A stretch of DNA of 33,843 bases from a virus. Position numbers and translations under genes: made by a program. The stretch lies in the IMG/VR virus record IMGVR_UViG_3300046000_005974, positions 1 to 33,843 of that record. One strand, 5' to 3'. Every line of letters begins with the position of its first letter. Position 1 is the first letter of the stretch. The notes under the pieces were generated by a model, which worked only from the letters and a program-made list of their open reading frames with translations, did no database searches and was not told the origin of the DNA. Of this stretch, positions 1 through 11,785 are shown one piece after another.

Positions 1-3000
1 AGCATCGAGCTTGGCATCGAACGTCACCTTGCCCACCAAATCCATCGCACTGCCCTTCATCCCCGGCATAAAGTAGCGGGTGGCGTTCGAACCCAATGTC
101 AGAATCACCGGTGGCTTGAGCAACTCAATCTCTTTCTCAAGCCAGGGTGTGCAGCCGTTGATCTGTTCGTTGGTCAGGAGCTTACCCTGCTTCGGACTCT
201 TGACCAGTGATGTGAAGTAACCATCGTTGGCGCTTAAACCCGCATCGGTCATGACTGCCTTTAGAATCTCAGCAGCCTCACCATCAAGTAAGCGACCAGC
301 TTTCACTTCACTATAGTTCGGATAATCAAAAACGATCATGAACTTGGGCGTTTTGCCTACGCGGGGCAACGGATGTGGTTGACCCTTGAGGGAGCAGCCT
401 TGACATACCGTTACGTCCTGAGCCAAGCGAATGATCTGTGTAATCGTGGCAGTTTCATTGACCAGCATACGGTTGGCCTTCACCGCGTCGATGGTGAAAC
501 CAGGCATCAGCTCCAACCGATCTTTCAGGCGGGAGGCATCAAGCGCCGGCAGACCGCCTTCGCATGACACGAATGCCCCTACCCGCTGTAGGCGTTCACG
601 GTGCTGCGAGTTGATCTTGCCTGTGATGTGCTTCTTGAGAATCTGTTCTTCCATGTCAACCAAGGATACCCACGGTCTGCCCATCTTTTTACGGGCAGCT
701 ACAAGGTAGCCAGCGACGTTGGTTGATATGCCCTTGACCGCTTGAAAAGGCGCTGTCAGGGTCGTGTCGTTCATAATCTCAATGCGATCCGTCGATATGT
801 TGATATCGGGCGGTTGCACCAGAATGTCCAGACGACGAGCGTCGAGCATCAGGGCAACCAGTTTGTCCTCGTCGTCCACTACCGACATGGCGGCAGCAAA
901 GAACTCGGCGGGATACGTGACCTTGAGCCACATACACCAGTAGGAGATAACCGAATACTCAACTGCATGGCTCTTGTTGAAGGCGTAACCGGCGAACACT
1001 TCGATCTTGTCAAACAGTCCGGTAGCGACACGTTCTTCCATACCGCTGACCCTGATACAGCCTTGCACGAACTTGTCGCGCTGTTCGGCCATCAAGTCCT
1101 TGTCTTTCTTACCCATCGCTTTCCGCAGATGGTCTGATTCAGTCAGGGTAAAACCGGCAAGATCCACCGCTACCCGCATGACCTGTTCCTGGTAGACGAT
1201 AACCCCGTAGGTGTCCTTCAGGGCGGCTTCCATGTTCGGGTGTTCAAGGTATGCAGTCTTGGCACCCTGCTTGATCTGAACGTAGTCATCACACAGGCCA
1301 GCATCAAGAGGGCCAGGTCTGAACAGGGCGGTTGTGGCTGCGAGGTTGTCGAACGTCAGACTGCCCCCGTTTGCCAGTTGCTTCAGCAGCCCACGCATAC
1401 CAGAGGATTCGAACTGGAACACACCGGTCGTATGCCCATCTGCGAACGAGGCCAGAACCTTCGGGTCATCCAGAGGCAGGGTCATGTAATCAACGTCAAC
1501 CCCCTTGCGCTCCTTGACATACTGACGACCGAGTTCCAGCAAGTCGAGGGTGGACAGGCCCAAAATGTCCATCTTAATCAGGCCCCAATCCTCAACGAAT
1601 TTCTTGTCCCAATTGACCACCGCAGAGCCGCTACGGGTTTCGACCACGGCCCTGTTCACGATTGGCTCGTTCGATACCACGATACCGGCAGCATGTTTGC
1701 CCAGAGTCCGCATACACCCCTCAAGGTTCAGGGCGTGTTGCCACAATACGGGATGGTTGCCCTTGAACTTCTCCAATTCGGGCACCCGATTGGCAGCTTC
1801 GGTCAGGTCAACCGAAACACCATGCTCAGAAGGCACCAGCTTCGTGCAGGCGAGTTCGAACTGGTCTATGTCATGCACCCTACCCGCATCCCGCAAGGCG
1901 CTTGCTGAAGCTAACGTGGAGTAGTTTGAGATACCCGCTACCTTGTCCTGCCCATACTTGGCAATGATCTGCTCCACGACCTCATGGCGCCGGCTGCTCA
2001 TGAAGTCCAAGTCAGCGTCAGGCAAGTCGATACGGTCAGGGTTGATAAAGCGTTCAAACAGGAGGTCGAACCTGATCGGGTCAACGTCCGTGATACCAAG
2101 CAGGTAGGACACCAGCGAACCCCCGGCTGAACCCCGCCCAGGCCCGACGATGATGCCATTCTCTTTCGACCAGTTCACAATGTCCTGAACCAGCAGAAAG
2201 TAGCCTGAGAACCCCATCTTTTTGAGGACAGATAGCTCGAAAGCCAAGCGAGGCTTGTAGATTGTCTCCAACTCTGCGGCGGTTGGCTGATGACCCATTA
2301 CCGGTTGCGAGAACCGACGCTTCCACCCGTGAGCCATCTGAACCCGCAGTGCTGCGAACTCGTCAGGTGCCATTACCGGCAGCGCGTTGGGGAGTTTCTT
2401 GAATTCATAGGTCACAGAGTCCACAAGTTTCTGTAGGGCATTGAAGCCTTCAAGAACTGCTTTCGGATTACCATCACCCACGCCTCGCTTAAGCATCTTG
2501 GCGACATGACGCACCAGCGCCACATCAGGTTGAAAGTAGAAGTCCTTCACAGACTGCACCGGATTCCAGGGTGCAGCCATCTTGGTGTTGGTGCAAATAG
2601 CCTTCAAGACTGTAAGGGTATCGGCATGTTCTGGCAGATCGTAGAGAACCGGATAGGTAATGATCGTGTTGAATGGGCCACAAGATAGTGCTTTAGTGTT
2701 CAATATATCGAACAGTGGAGTATTGATCGGCACCAGTTCAACGTAGAAGTCGTTCTGGAACTGACCGGCCAGGGCCGACACGATTGCTTTGTGGTTCGGA
2801 TGGTGAAAGACGTTGTAGAAATCGCCAGTCGATATCGCGCATCCCGATAAATCCATAATATCGCTCAGGCCGATACGGGCGTTGTAGTAGAAGTTCTCCT
2901 CACTGTTGCCCTTGGACAGAACTTTTAGCAGGTTGTGAAGGCCAGTCTCATTCAGGACGTAGCACTTCAAGTTGTAGGTCAGGTTCGCCACTTCAGCAAT

Positions 3001-3252
3001 GCCCGAAGCCTTAGCTGGCTTCTTGTAGGTCGGGTCGTCATAGACCCGCAGGGTGCAGCCAATGATGGGCTTGATGCCAACCTTCTTGGCCTTGTTGGTG
3101 AAGTTCACCATCGCGGACACCGACATGATATCGACCAGCGCAACCGACTCGTAGCCAAGTGCTTTGGCTTTGTCGATCAGCGTGTCGATTTGGAGGGTGC
3201 TTTCCCCGATGCTGAAGTCGGAACGAACCGACATGGCGTGATTGATGCTCAT
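1..3252 (-). CDS. dnaE: DNA polymerase III alpha subunit (DnaE type) with C-terminal uracil-glycosylase-like extension, 3' end outside window
   Basis: This is the replicative polymerase catalytic subunit; 1084 residues are visible and the frame is still open at base 1. The start is ATG at 3252, with AAGGA overlapping the upstream gene's stop. Residues about 5-65 match the PHP domain of DnaE, but the metal ligands are gone: SVRSDFS stands where HxH is usual, and LVDIMSV where LTDHGN is usual. The palm motif PDADLDF (residues 411-417) keeps the catalytic aspartates, GPGRGSAGGSLVSYLLG precedes it, and GLFDKIEVFAGYAFNKSHA follows much later. From about residue 945 a different domain begins: CQGC (C950, C953), IVFDYPNYSEVKAGRLL, VKSPKQGKLLTNEQINGC (C1034) and PVILTLGSNATRYF. 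This is laid out like family-4/5 uracil-DNA glycosylases. The third cluster cysteine (normally KCRPP) is Ser here. Polymerase assignment is firm; the extension is a pattern match only. Confidence 0.93.
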   Translation of the reverse strand, partial: MSINHAMSVRSDFSIGESTLQIDTLIDKAKALGYESVALVDIMSVSAMVNFTNKAKKVGIKPIIGCTLRVYDDPTYKKPAKASGIAEVANLTYNLKCYVLNETGLHNLLKVLSKGNSEENFYYNARIGLSDIMDLSGCAISTGDFYNVFHHPNHKAIVSALAGQFQNDFYVELVPINTPLFDILNTKALSCGPFNTIITYPVLYDLPEHADTLTVLKAICTNTKMAAPWNPVQSVKDFYFQPDVALVRHVAKMLKRGVGDGNPKAVLEGFNALQKLVDSVTYEFKKLPNALPVMAPDEFAALRVQMAHGWKRRFSQPVMGHQPTAAELETIYKPRLAFELSVLKKMGFSGYFLLVQDIVNWSKENGIIVGPGRGSAGGSLVSYLLGITDVDPIRFDLLFERFINPDRIDLPDADLDFMSSRRHEVVEQIIAKYGQDKVAGISNYSTLASASALRDAGRVHDIDQFELACTKLVPSEHGVSVDLTEAANRVPELEKFKGNHPVLWQHALNLEGCMRTLGKHAAGIVVSNEPIVNRAVVETRSGSAVVNWDKKFVEDWGLIKMDILGLSTLDLLELGRQYVKERKGVDVDYMTLPLDDPKVLASFADGHTTGVFQFESSGMRGLLKQLANGGSLTFDNLAATTALFRPGPLDAGLCDDYVQIKQGAKTAYLEHPNMEAALKDTYGVIVYQEQVMRVAVDLAGFTLTESDHLRKAMGKKDKDLMAEQRDKFVQGCIRVSGMEERVATGLFDKIEVFAGYAFNKSHAVEYSVISYWCMWLKVTYPAEFFAAAMSVVDDEDKLVALMLDARRLDILVQPPDINISTDRIEIMNDTTLTAPFQAVKGISTNVAGYLVAARKKMGRPWVSLVDMEEQILKKHITGKINSQHRERLQRVGAFVSCEGGLPALDASRLKDRLELMPGFTIDAVKANRMLVNETATITQIIRLAQDVTVCQGCSLKGQPHPLPRVGKTPKFMIVFDYPNYSEVKAGRLLDGEAAEILKAVMTDAGLSANDGYFTSLVKSPKQGKLLTNEQINGCTPWLEKEIELLKPPVILTLGSNATRYFMPGMKGSAMDLVGKVTFDAKLDA

Positions 3253-5255: not shown

Positions 5256-6455
5256 TTACACTGTCGGGAAGATGCGTTGTGCCAGGCCGTCCACTACTTC
5301 ACGATCCACGCGGGACAGCTTGTTTGAGAAGCACAGGGCCAAACCTGTGCGCCAGCTACCACGGCGCATACCAATCAGGGCCGCGTAGATCAGGGTGCGA
5401 GGCGAAATCGTTGCAGACAGCTTGTTGCCGGCGTAAGCCTCACGGACACGCGCTGCAAAGTTCACCAGCTTGTCTGCATCGGCCTTACCGATCTTCGCCT
5501 TGTTGACGATGATCTGAGCTTCAAGAGTGGCGTCCATGTATTTGGCTTCGATCACCATGCCAAAGCGGTCGTAGTTCGCATGGTTCTGGATGCTGGTGCC
5601 CTGATACAGGCCCGTTTCATCCCCGTTACCGTTCGTGTTCCCGTTCGCCATGAAGCGGAAGTTCGGGCTCGGCTTGATGATTCGGTTAGCGGCGTCTGCC
5701 TCCTTAATCACCAGTGACTTACCCTCAAGCACCGCCTGATAGACCGAGAGAACAGACGGCACCCCGAAGTCGTATTCGTCAGCCAGGTAGACCCAACCGT
5801 GCTTCATCGCCAGCGGCAAGGGGCCGAGTTCGAAGTGAGTCTCCCCACCCCGCGCAGTCCACTGCCCAAGAATGTGGCTTTCTTCGGTGTTGACGGTGTG
5901 CTGGACGCGAATGTGAGGACGGTTGGTGCGATTCATTAGCTGCAACATCGCCATCGTCTTGCCCGTTCCCGTATGACCCCACACGTAGAGAGGAATGTTG
6001 AGTTCAACCGCCATCAGCATGTTCTTCAGCATCTCCACATCCCATACATGGCCTTCGTCATCTTCAGGCACGTATTCCTGGAACGAGTGAGGCTCAAGCA
6101 CAGTGATCGGGATAGGATCGCCCCGCCCATTGGTGCTTTCCTTGGTTTTCTCCAAACCAAAGACTTCATGCAGTGCCTTTTTGATGGTGCCTCCGCTATA
6201 CGTTATCGGTGTTACTTTCGCTACCGCGCTAACCGCCATTGCAGCGACGGGTGCCGGGACGATACCTGCTGCAACCTTTGCTGCCTGTTGTTTTGCGAGA
6301 GCGTCAATTGCCGCCTCGGACATAAGCGGTTCGCCAGGGAACTCGCTCTTGTATTTCTCCAAACTCCACTCGCTGTCCTTGTGGTCACGGCTCAGGTGAA
6401 CCTGAATCGAGTGGACAAGCGCACCACAAACTTTGCATTCAATTTTTTCGCTCAC
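5256..6455 (-). CDS. CobS-like AAA+ ATPase (MoxR group) with N-terminal zinc finger
   Basis: A 399-residue AAA+ ATPase. The N-terminus carries a C2H2 finger (C7, C10, H20, H25) like that of MucR/Ros proteins. The ATPase core has Walker A GHTGTGKT (160-167) and Walker B WVYLADEYDF (D226, E227), followed by NFRFMANGN as sensor 1 and the arrangement typical of cobaltochelatase CobS. The start is GTG at 6455, with AAGGAG eight bases ahead; the next in-frame Met is residue 45. The upstream gene is a CobT-like VWA protein, the partner expected for this ATPase family. No other cobalamin genes are visible, so I read the pair as a MoxR/VWA chaperone-like machine and not a cobalt chelatase. Confidence 0.87.
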   Translation of the reverse strand: MSEKIECKVCGALVHSIQVHLSRDHKDSEWSLEKYKSEFPGEPLMSEAAIDALAKQQAAKVAAGIVPAPVAAMAVSAVAKVTPITYSGGTIKKALHEVFGLEKTKESTNGRGDPIPITVLEPHSFQEYVPEDDEGHVWDVEMLKNMLMAVELNIPLYVWGHTGTGKTMAMLQLMNRTNRPHIRVQHTVNTEESHILGQWTARGGETHFELGPLPLAMKHGWVYLADEYDFGVPSVLSVYQAVLEGKSLVIKEADAANRIIKPSPNFRFMANGNTNGNGDETGLYQGTSIQNHANYDRFGMVIEAKYMDATLEAQIIVNKAKIGKADADKLVNFAARVREAYAGNKLSATISPRTLIYAALIGMRRGSWRTGLALCFSNKLSRVDREVVDGLAQRIFPTV

Positions 6456-6525
6456 AGTATTCTCCTTGTGTCTGTCGTGTCGTGCTACACAAACTACATA
6501 TTACCCGTTCTGGTCTGGAAATGCT

Positions 6526-6541
6526 ACGTCATTGATTACTT
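6526..6541. promoter_or_regulatory. Degenerate copy of dispersed 16-bp palindrome
   Basis: ACGTCATTGATTACTT matches 10 of the 14 defined positions of AAGTCACNNGTGACTT. It lies in the 98-bp gap between the CobT-like and CobS-like genes. A possible leftward -10 (TAATAT, 6503-6498) follows. The rest of the gap shows only the ribosome site for the CobS-like gene. Confidence 0.35.
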
Positions 6542-6553
6542 ATTTAAATTGCC

Positions 6554-8761
6554 TTACTTGGTCAACATCTGGCGCAGTTCGCTCATGACCACGGCTGGAA
6601 GCTCTGAGACTTCCTTGATAACTACGCACTTGGGGTAGAACTTCCGCACATACTCCGAATTGATACCGATGCCGACCACATCAATGCCCATCTTGGTAAT
6701 CTCTTTTACCGATGCCTTCAGGTGGGCATCCAAAACAGCACTCTCTCCACCACAAGCGGGTTGACCATCCGACAATACGATCATGATCTTCCGTGTTTCC
6801 TTGCGTTGGTAGAGGCGCATCGATGCAATCTGAACGCACTCACCATCCACATTCTCACGCATGAACGGAACATCACATGTCAACTTGGCGAACCGTGTCT
6901 TAACGTCCGCAGTCACACGTTCTCCCCACCCCTTGATGATCGGCATATACAGAGCCTCGTTCCGCGCATATCTCACACCCGCTGTCTCGGCATGACTGGC
7001 GTCATCCTCGATATCAATGGGTAGTGTGGTGAAGCCGATAACTTCGTGCTGAATGCCCATACGTTCCAGCACCGACGATAAGCCATATGCGGCGTAGGCG
7101 GCAGTCTCCATCTTGTTGTGCTGGCTCATTGAACCAGAAAGATCAACGACCAATTCAACCGCCACATCTTTTGTGAAGTTCACATGCTTGCGACGAAACA
7201 CGCGGTCGTCGCCAAAGTTCAGACGAGTCAGGCTCCCGGCATGTAGACGACCCTTGCGGTGTCCACCTGTCCAGGTTGCGGCAGACTTAGCTGCAATGGC
7301 ACGTTCAAGACCCTTCTGCATGGCACCCACCAGATGATCGACATTGTTTTGGAGTCGCTCAAGCACTTCCGAAGTGACCTTGACTGTGGTCATCGGTTCG
7401 ATGCGGTCAAAGTCCTTGGTATAAACCGTGTAGTCAGAGTCAGCCGCCTCTTTCCTCGACTGCTTAGAGATTTCTTCTGCAATGGCATCGTCATAGTCAG
7501 CGCCCATTTCAGCTTCAAGTTCCTCGCTACCGGTCGGGCCAGGTTCCTTCTCAGGTGCGCCAAGGGGTTTAGTTTTCTCCCCAGGATTCCCACCCTCCTT
7601 AGAATCCTTTTTACCCTTGCTACCGTCAGCCTTGTCAGAAGATCCATCAGCGGGTTTGTCCTCGCCCTTGTCGCCTTCATCACCCTTGTCGCCCTTGGCA
7701 CCCGCTTCAGCCTTGGCACCCTCACCTTCAGAATCTTCCGCACCTTTGGGCTGATCGTCCTTCTCACCCGACTTAGGCTTGTCATCTGACTTAGAGGAGC
7801 CTTCTTCACCATTCTCGCCTTCATCCTCGGCGTTGGTGGCAGATTCTTCATCACCGGCGGCAGGTTGATCGTCGTCACCAGAGTCACTAGGATCGGGCGG
7901 CAACGAATCATCAGGGCCATCACCGAGGTCTATGTCATCACCCTCTTGGTCGCCATCAGATTCTTCAGATTCTTCAGAATCACCAGGCTTTTTGCCTGGC
8001 TTGCCTGTGGGCGATGGTGTTGATTCTTCACCGTCCTCTGCCGCTTCTTCGCTCGGTTCTCCTTCTTCGGTCGGCGTTGGGTCACCAGCCATACCCTCGC
8101 ACATGGCGGCAGCTTTATCTTTAGCCTCTTTCGCATCATCGAGGCGCTTTTTGATTAGCAGTGCGACGGTCAGGCTATCTTCGGTTGACTTGACCGCAGA
8201 AACGATATCGCCAATGTCAGGGCCAAGCGCATCAACAATGCCCGGAATCATGTGCCACTTGTCCTTCATGTAGTCGATGTAGACTTGTTGGCCGGCCCAT
8301 GCCCGAACTGCCGGGACGATCAGGACACCCGCGACCTTCTTCGGGTTCTCCTTGATCTTTTTGTCTGTATAGGACTTCAGAAAGTAGTGACCGACGTTCC
8401 GCAGGTTCAGCCCTGAACCAGAGAAGTGATCGGCCATCTTTTTCTCGATGAACGAATCCTCAATGATGTTGTGCATACGGCCAACCTTCGCAGCCTTGGC
8501 TTTTGGGATGACCCTGGAATTGGTGAACAGAATGTGTGCTACCTCATGGTCGAGGAAGCCCTGAATTGCGTCCATGAGTTCTTCACTCGCGTCGTCAGGC
8601 ATGTAGGGGATATTGACGCGCTTCGGCTCAAGGGTGCGTGGGTTGTATTCAACGAATGCCTTAGAGCCTCGCTGCGTAACCTTGACTTCCTTTTGGGCAA
8701 GCATGTTGACCAGCTTGCCGACCGCCTCGCGCATTATCAAAACACGGCTGTTAATCTTCAT
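6554..8761 (-). CDS. CobT-like protein: HExxH metallopeptidase-like domain, acidic linker and VWA domain (735 aa)
   Basis: Three parts are visible. Residues 70-105 carry HEVAH (72-76) and, 22 residues later, NIIED (98-102). This is a gluzincin-like zinc site as seen in peptidase-like N-terminal domains of CobT relatives. Residues about 225-415 are a low-complexity linker, very rich in Asp, Glu, Gly, Ser and Lys. Residues about 530-735 form a von Willebrand A domain with an intact MIDAS DLSGSMS (540-546) and IVLSDGQP near the far edge. ATG at 8761 has GGAGAG five bases ahead. It is followed after 98 bp by its CobS-like ATPase. A leftward promoter with a palindromic operator lies just upstream (8774-8805). 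Confidence 0.87.
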   Translation of the reverse strand: MKINSRVLIMREAVGKLVNMLAQKEVKVTQRGSKAFVEYNPRTLEPKRVNIPYMPDDASEELMDAIQGFLDHEVAHILFTNSRVIPKAKAAKVGRMHNIIEDSFIEKKMADHFSGSGLNLRNVGHYFLKSYTDKKIKENPKKVAGVLIVPAVRAWAGQQVYIDYMKDKWHMIPGIVDALGPDIGDIVSAVKSTEDSLTVALLIKKRLDDAKEAKDKAAAMCEGMAGDPTPTEEGEPSEEAAEDGEESTPSPTGKPGKKPGDSEESEESDGDQEGDDIDLGDGPDDSLPPDPSDSGDDDQPAAGDEESATNAEDEGENGEEGSSKSDDKPKSGEKDDQPKGAEDSEGEGAKAEAGAKGDKGDEGDKGEDKPADGSSDKADGSKGKKDSKEGGNPGEKTKPLGAPEKEPGPTGSEELEAEMGADYDDAIAEEISKQSRKEAADSDYTVYTKDFDRIEPMTTVKVTSEVLERLQNNVDHLVGAMQKGLERAIAAKSAATWTGGHRKGRLHAGSLTRLNFGDDRVFRRKHVNFTKDVAVELVVDLSGSMSQHNKMETAAYAAYGLSSVLERMGIQHEVIGFTTLPIDIEDDASHAETAGVRYARNEALYMPIIKGWGERVTADVKTRFAKLTCDVPFMRENVDGECVQIASMRLYQRKETRKIMIVLSDGQPACGGESAVLDAHLKASVKEITKMGIDVVGIGINSEYVRKFYPKCVVIKEVSELPAVVMSELRQMLTK

Positions 8762-11166: not shown

Positions 11167-11329
11167 TTTCTCCCCAATTTCTCCCCGAACTCCTGATTCG
11201 CTGGTAGGCGCGATTGGACTCGAACCATTTCTACAGGAAAGCCTGGGGTAGCTGTGGGGTAAGCTCTCATAGGAGAACTCCCCTACGTTACCCCTGAACT
11301 GCCACCAATTTCTCCCCGAATTTCTCCCC
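11165..11329. other. attP: Phage attachment site region (attP-like)
   Basis: The centre (11202-11227) is a tRNA 3' end read on the minus strand: TTCGA T-loop, acceptor 3' strand CGCGCCT, then ACCA. No 5' half of a tRNA is present. The AATTTCTCCCC repeat occurs four times, twice on each side (11165-11175, 11176-11186, 11307-11317, 11319-11329), as expected for integrase arm sites. Between core and right arms a GGGGTA pair (11245-11250, 11256-11261) faces an inverted CCCCTA/TACCCC pair (11280-11294). Phage genes on both sides argue for attP rather than attL or attR. Confidence 0.72.
11202..11227 (-). other. tRNA 3'-end fragment, putative attachment core
   Basis: Minus-strand TGGTTCGAGTCCAATCGCGC then CTACCA gives the T-arm (loop TTCGAGT), seven acceptor bases, discriminator A and CCA. 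The outer T-stem has one mismatch (AATGG with CCAAT), consistent with identity to the host tRNA stopping there. The host tRNA would start AGGCGCG; I cannot name its amino acid. Confidence 0.65.
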
Positions 11330-11785
11330 GGAGTCCAGCGTGTCTTGCTCAACAATTTTCTGACTGTCCGCAACCGTGTAATGCTTTGGATTTTTCCCCG
11401 CGTGTTTCAGTGTGAGCCGCGCAATATGTGGCGTCAGCTTATCCAGATACGGGCCGATATCAATGGCCGGTGCACGGGTATCCGTCAGCTTACCACAGGC
11501 TGCGGCATCGATAATGATCGCCAGGGTAGCCATTGCGTGAGCAAGGTGACATAGCTGGCTGTCTGCATCGACGTTCTCACCGCTGTTCCACTTCTCGATG
11601 TGACGCAGGGCTGCATCAATATAGACAGACGAATCAATCCCGGCTGCACGCCAGTTCCACTTCCCATACTTCTGAGCGCCGTCGAACAGGGCAAGACTCA
11701 GGTGGGCCATCGCGGTTGGTGGGCAGAGGTTCAGCGGCAGCTTGGTATTGCCCACAATGTCTTTAGGGTTATGAATGACGGTCAT
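11288..11785 (-). CDS. dATP/dGTP pyrophosphohydrolase-like protein (MazG-fold, DUF5664 group), 165 aa
   Basis: The family pattern is clear: LPLNLCPPTAMAHLSLALFD, then GAQKYGKWNWRAAGIDSSVY, ALRHIEKWNSGENVDADS, and LCHLAHAMATLAIIID. These are the helices with acidic and basic residues that bind Mg-dNTP in the all-alpha NTP pyrophosphohydrolase fold. Phage relatives split dATP or dGTP to monophosphates; the MazZ branch serves 2-aminoadenine phages, but no PurZ is seen here. The start ATG 11785 overlaps the upstream small gene (ATGA). The last 14 residues are encoded across two of the att arm repeats, so the coding end is shared with the integration site. Confidence 0.82.
   Translation of the reverse strand: MTVIHNPKDIVGNTKLPLNLCPPTAMAHLSLALFDGAQKYGKWNWRAAGIDSSVYIDAALRHIEKWNSGENVDADSQLCHLAHAMATLAIIIDAAACGKLTDTRAPAIDIGPYLDKLTPHIARLTLKHAGKNPKHYTVADSQKIVEQDTLDSGEKFGEKLVAVQG

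Follow-up and report, generated by a model that had tools for sequence, protein, structure and literature searches.

A C-terminal domain related to family-4 uracil-DNA glycosylases, with altered active-site residues and a predicted Cys3-His metal site, on a DnaE-type phage DNA polymerase

The combination of a DnaE polymerase with a uracil-DNA glycosylase (UDG) domain is already known from a survey published in 2013 (PMC3919608), in which polymerases of Yersinia pestis and Salmonella were described with the OB and CTD domains replaced by a PF03167 domain. The available passages of that survey give one sentence on the architecture and no residue analysis. A UDG domain was also described on the family-A polymerase of phage PaBG (PMC7412058). 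Further family-A phage polymerases with such a domain include those of SPO1, the PMBT14/Serbin group and the Thermus phage phiLo (structure 9qhs); the original prediction had already pointed to glycosylase-like domains on the family-A polymerases of SPO1-type phages. In a literature search that took in few subscription papers, no account was found of the active-site state or of a ligand change in the DnaE-fused domain, and PMC12697855 makes no mention of such a polymerase domain.

The window, i.e. the whole stretch of DNA that was analysed, is an entire linear virus record of 33,843 bases and is probably a fragment. The polymerase frame runs off its edge, and the last ~36 residues are missing:

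1-3252, minus strand: gene of a DnaE-like C-family DNA polymerase, with the ATG at 3252, 1084 amino acids present and the 3' end lost at the contig edge (base 1)
1-453, minus strand: family-4-UDG-like C-terminal domain, residues about 934-1084 (Pfam PF03167 and AlphaFold model of the homologue L036)

Pfam analysis of the 1084-residue frame revealed the PHP, DNA_pol3_alpha, finger and HHH_6 domains, followed by UDG (PF03167). The PHP, palm/thumb/fingers and HhH core of C-family polymerases is thus present according to Pfam, and also by comparison of the L036 model with E. coli Pol III alpha. Both Asp motifs of the palm are intact (PDADLDF, starting at residue 411, and KMDILGL, starting at residue 560), and the catalytic Asp positions of the palm are invariant in 79 sequences. 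The same gene was found in the phages nickie, RHEph10, ANB28 and SSU5, with 37-45% identity across the full length; the RHEph10 record itself carries the annotation 'uracil-DNA glycosylase-like'. More than 130 viral contigs carry the architecture, and the domain was matched in 966 plasmid records. SSU5-like phage-plasmids are the likely source of the Y. pestis and Salmonella polymerases reported in PMC3919608.

The gene is split in at least nine of the homologues, always at about position 740-743 of the polymerase profile, immediately ahead of the FNKSH region. The ORFs in the gaps are L008:4346-5053, L030:3768-4538, L033:6802-7524, L166:8392-9099, L167:8376-8951, L169:8404-8976, L170:4999-5877, L172:8410-9153 and L174:1382-2140. 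All four that were tested contain HNH_3 together with NUMOD4 or NUMOD3 motifs, as in homing endonucleases; no Rfam intron model matched in the split genes. The SSU5-type polymerases (e.g. L004:5995-9513) contain an in-frame insert, AGWxxVExEDGTxxxxHRxxxFxCxDGxxRTVEEA, at the site of the gene split, and where the gene is split, its first half (e.g. L166:5953-8346) ends in a sequence resembling this insert. One contig of 215,656 bases (L112) has two polymerase frames of 1149 amino acids about 107 kb apart, possibly because two genomes, or a doubled genome, were joined in assembly.

The C-terminal domain was recognized by several independent profiles. PF03167 matched residues 968-1064 above its gathering score (42.2 bits, E=1.1e-10), the NCBIfam type-4 UDG models matched residues 942-1065 below their own cut-offs, and a profile built from eight homologues matched the family-4 UDG 4zbx at E=7.4e-19. 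An AlphaFold model was built, with 79 sequences, for L036, which at 59% identity is the nearest of the full-length homologues (pLDDT 91.7, pTM 0.83). Its residues 1-904 resemble E. coli Pol III alpha (Z 43.5 over 858 residues), and its residues 936-1120 resemble 4zbx (Z 24.8, rmsd 2.1, 182 residues). The model of the divergent homologue L157, which has none of the metal ligands, gave a similar result (pLDDT 92.7; Z 22.2 to 4zbx, rmsd 2.5, 179 residues). According to these models, the UDG fold is common to homologues with and without metal ligands. The original prediction of a DnaE core followed by a UDG-like domain is therefore borne out by the Pfam match and the L036 model. The α/β fold of family-4 UDGs was found by both profiles and models, and the scores rule out a chance resemblance. 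The OB and tau-binding domains typical of the DnaE1 C-terminus are absent; structure prediction, which could have given an OB or tau-binding fold and so contradicted the prediction, gave the UDG fold in their place.

Active-site residues were counted in an alignment of 132 homologues and three family-4 UDG sequences, and 74 free family-4 enzymes were compared by the same alignment procedure. The positions concerned are:

316-330, minus strand: motif A, FDYPN at residues 975-979 (GEAPG in family 4)
196-219, minus strand: strand YFTSLVKS, with S1015 at the uracil-Asn position and S1019 at the third-cysteine position
130-132, minus strand: E1041, Glu in 132/132 DnaE homologues and Gln in 61/74 free family-4 enzymes

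The GEAPG motif is not found in the DnaE-fused family, where motif A reads xD[AC]P[NST] and the Glu is replaced by Asp in 131/132 homologues (D976 in the window). None of the 132 has the uracil-reading Asn; Ala, Ser, Thr or Gly occupies this position in all but three. The stacking Phe is mostly lost. The position of the motif-B His, which in the window lies beyond the contig edge, is Asn in 98/132 homologues, Ser in 26 and His in only one. The free family-4 enzymes, by comparison, retain the Glu in 73/74, the Asn in 72/74 and the His in 72/74. The KRRIH loop of UdgX, with its crosslinking His, was not found in segment 1019-1034 (SPKQGKLLTNEQINGC), where there is no His at all. Judging from these residues, the domain probably does not have normal glycosylase activity. 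The doubt about catalysis raised earlier on account of the Ser and of FDYPN thus extends to the signature residues of the whole family, and the description of the CxxC, of FDYPN at 975-979 and of Ser at the third cluster position was correct. Of the two features suggested for the missing end, an HPS-like motif was not found, as full-length relatives terminate in GFNPG; a fourth cysteine does exist, but within the sequence present (C1034).

The metal site is represented by three features of the window:

394-405, minus strand: C950-x2-C953, the first two metal-ligand cysteines
373-375, minus strand: H960, candidate substitute ligand, seven residues past the CxxC region
151-153, minus strand: C1034, the fourth family-4 cysteine, kept along with CxxC and H960

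The third cluster cysteine is absent from all 132 homologues, and the four-cysteine set of a [4Fe-4S] cluster is therefore incomplete in each of them. The CxxC is present in 65 homologues and absent from 67. In the former group, the fourth Cys and a His in the aligned column occur in 65/65; in the latter, the His occurs in 2/67 and the fourth Cys in 1/67. The His usually follows the CxxC by seven residues, and by ten in five cases. The pattern CxxC-x6-H was not seen in the family-A fusions or the free enzymes, with the exception of one free-standing frame; this frame is most likely L200, a contig-end fragment nested inside the DnaE clade. Because the His accompanies the three other cysteines without exception, the cluster is probably not simply one ligand short. 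The original prediction of a missing cluster ligand was thus right about the Ser at the third cysteine, but probably not about a ligand that is simply lacking. The co-occurrence suggests that a predicted Cys3-His site replaces the four-cysteine cluster.

When only the polymerase part is used for the tree, the metal ligands change about six times, and at least two of these changes are forced by well-supported branches. In one of the two comparisons on such branches the His does not follow the change in the CxxC, and the independent pairs are too few for the sign test to be decisive. The natural reading of the alignment is that the Cys3-His site would have been acquired or given up almost as a whole. 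Since about half of the homologues have no metal ligands, the site appears to be dispensable. The domain itself is needed, as eight usable pairs gave it a dN/dS (0.035-0.235) in a similarly low range to that of the polymerase (0.063-0.150). Its conservation peaks in the motif regions that surround the former active site (2.9-3.3 bits versus 1.9). These values rule out a decaying relic.

A conserved motif was also found in front of the domain:

499-525, minus strand: linker motif KDRLELMPG (DQxELLPG in the family), a tentative sliding-clamp-binding peptide between the HhH and UDG-like domains

The pattern Q-x-x-L-[LMIF] occurs in 101/132 homologues, and Arg replaces the Gln in 16, including that of the window. 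The L036 model renders part of the motif as a helix. We take its position to be like that of the clamp-binding peptide in E. coli DnaE, and the motif is tentatively regarded as a candidate clamp contact. The gene context was analysed in 33 records (32 large relatives and the window). A DnaQ-type exonuclease is encoded in 32/33, i.e. in all 32 large relatives, and the exception is the window fragment. No beta clamp was recognized by PF02767 across the 33 records, which makes use of the host clamp likely.

PF03167 matched only the fusion in these 33 records, with no standalone UDG next to it, and a second UDG domain occurs only in one contig carrying two polymerase copies. Genes for dUTPase, which keeps dUTP out, are present in 20/33 records, for thymidylate synthase in 15/33 and for dCMP deaminase in 2/33. 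The earlier suggestion of a link to uracil in DNA through a neighbouring dCMP deaminase is thus not supported as a general feature. The dUTPase mostly accompanies polymerases without the Cys3-His site (17/20 versus 3/11; Fisher p 0.004, uncorrected for relatedness). In nickie and RHEph10, cobS- and cobT-like genes precede the polymerase gene, and the counterparts in SSU5 are annotated as porphyrin-biosynthetic. In the window, CobS- and CobT-like genes (5256-8761) also lie near the polymerase, with two small genes between. A short protein encoded at 11288-11785 resembles the N-terminal domain of phage dATP/dGTP diphosphohydrolase (PF18909, E=2e-26).

The reading that we somewhat favour is that the gene encodes a phage replicative C-family DNA polymerase (DnaE) with a UDG-derived C-terminus, a non-catalytic DNA-binding module that replaces the OB fold and holds or scans the single-stranded template. 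Handling of the template strand is usually the job of the OB domain. A domain descended from family-4 UDG would have taken the place of the OB-fold and tau-binding domains; a replacement of OB and CTD was independently described in the available passages of PMC3919608. The fold would have been kept, and the uracil-reading and catalytic residues lost. Part of the family would have a remodelled Cys, Cys, His, Cys metal site and the rest none. The domain would most likely hold or scan the incoming single-stranded template without excision, and the polymerase probably partners with the phage-encoded DnaQ-type exonuclease and the host sliding clamp. A more specific version is offered tentatively, as a little less than evenly probable: that the OB fold gave way, as the template-strand module, to a pseudo-glycosylase whose Cys3-His metal site is new (zinc or a His-ligated iron-sulfur cluster). 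One ligand would have been relocated in the sequence, and several lineages would later have lost the whole site together.

Several observations might be explained in other ways. The pocket could capture a flipped base (uracil, deaminated, damaged or modified) ahead of the polymerase and then stall it or give a signal; archaeal family-B polymerases read ahead for uracil. Such a template-reading sensor would agree with the peak of conservation around the old active site, with the related domains on family-A phage polymerases, some of which have an intact GEAPG, Asn and His, and with the phiLo structure, which was solved 'with modified template' (9qhs). However, the loss of the uracil-reading Asn and of most stacking Phe residues, the dUTPase in most relatives and the rarity of dCMP deaminase speak against it. 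The uracil sensor of the original prediction is thus weakly supported, and a sensor of bases in general is regarded as unlikely. It is rather unlikely, too, that the domain serves purely as a scaffold for replisome proteins (host clamp, clamp loader, helicase or exonuclease) and leaves its DNA face unused. Another tether may indeed be needed now that the tau-binding CTD is gone, and the conserved linker motif adjoins the domain; however, the conservation is centred on the motifs of the old DNA/base pocket and not elsewhere.

The near-invariant Asp of motif A counts against the favoured explanation, as it could support catalysis on another substrate. Together with the Asn of motif B, it would form a Mug-like pair in an active glycosylase or hydrolase of changed specificity, and the strong purifying selection would fit such an enzyme. 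Nevertheless, an enzyme that excised bases at the fork would create abasic sites in the template; in addition, 26 homologues have Ser in motif B, and half of the homologues lack the metal ligands. An active enzyme is accordingly considered very improbable. A non-catalytic module that holds or scans the template is preferred. It would plainly illustrate how the fold of a repair glycosylase can become a component of a polymerase in nature, and close relatives with and without the metal site are available for comparison. Should the domain read the template, it would parallel, in viruses of bacteria, the uracil read-ahead of archaeal polymerases; should it do no more than hold single-stranded DNA, an unrelated fold would be shown to stand in for the OB domain that DnaE almost universally carries. 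Since hundreds of phage-plasmid records from enterobacteria and Acinetobacter contain the polymerase, experiments in laboratory strains are practicable.

Comparison with the known systems showed both similarities and differences. The polymerase of the window has the UDG-bearing DnaEX architecture as given in the available passages of PMC3919608, with the same PHP-Pol3-(HhH)2 core and a PF03167 domain for OB and CTD; relative to those passages, the tracing to phages, the alteration of the active site throughout the family and the proposed Cys3-His site are added here. The family-A fusions also have a family-4-type domain, and several of them likewise have Asp for the motif-A Glu and no uracil Asn. 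However, their domain is N-terminal in the cases examined, whereas it is C-terminal on DnaE; most retain all four cluster cysteines, and their active sites range from intact to altered. A single origin of the family-A and family-C fused domains is unsupported, as the DnaE domains stand apart and the Asp-type family-A domains scatter. The DnaE domains are compatible with one clade (p-AU 0.78) in a tree with several long branches. The family-4 UDGs of Thermus, Thermotoga and Sulfolobus, as well as UdgX, share the fold and, with half of the homologues, the first, second and fourth cysteines; whereas the DnaE domain is distinguished from them by the absence of the third Cys, the GEAPG Glu, the uracil Asn, the KRRIH loop and, in nearly all homologues, the motif-B His, and by the extra His seven to ten residues past the CxxC.
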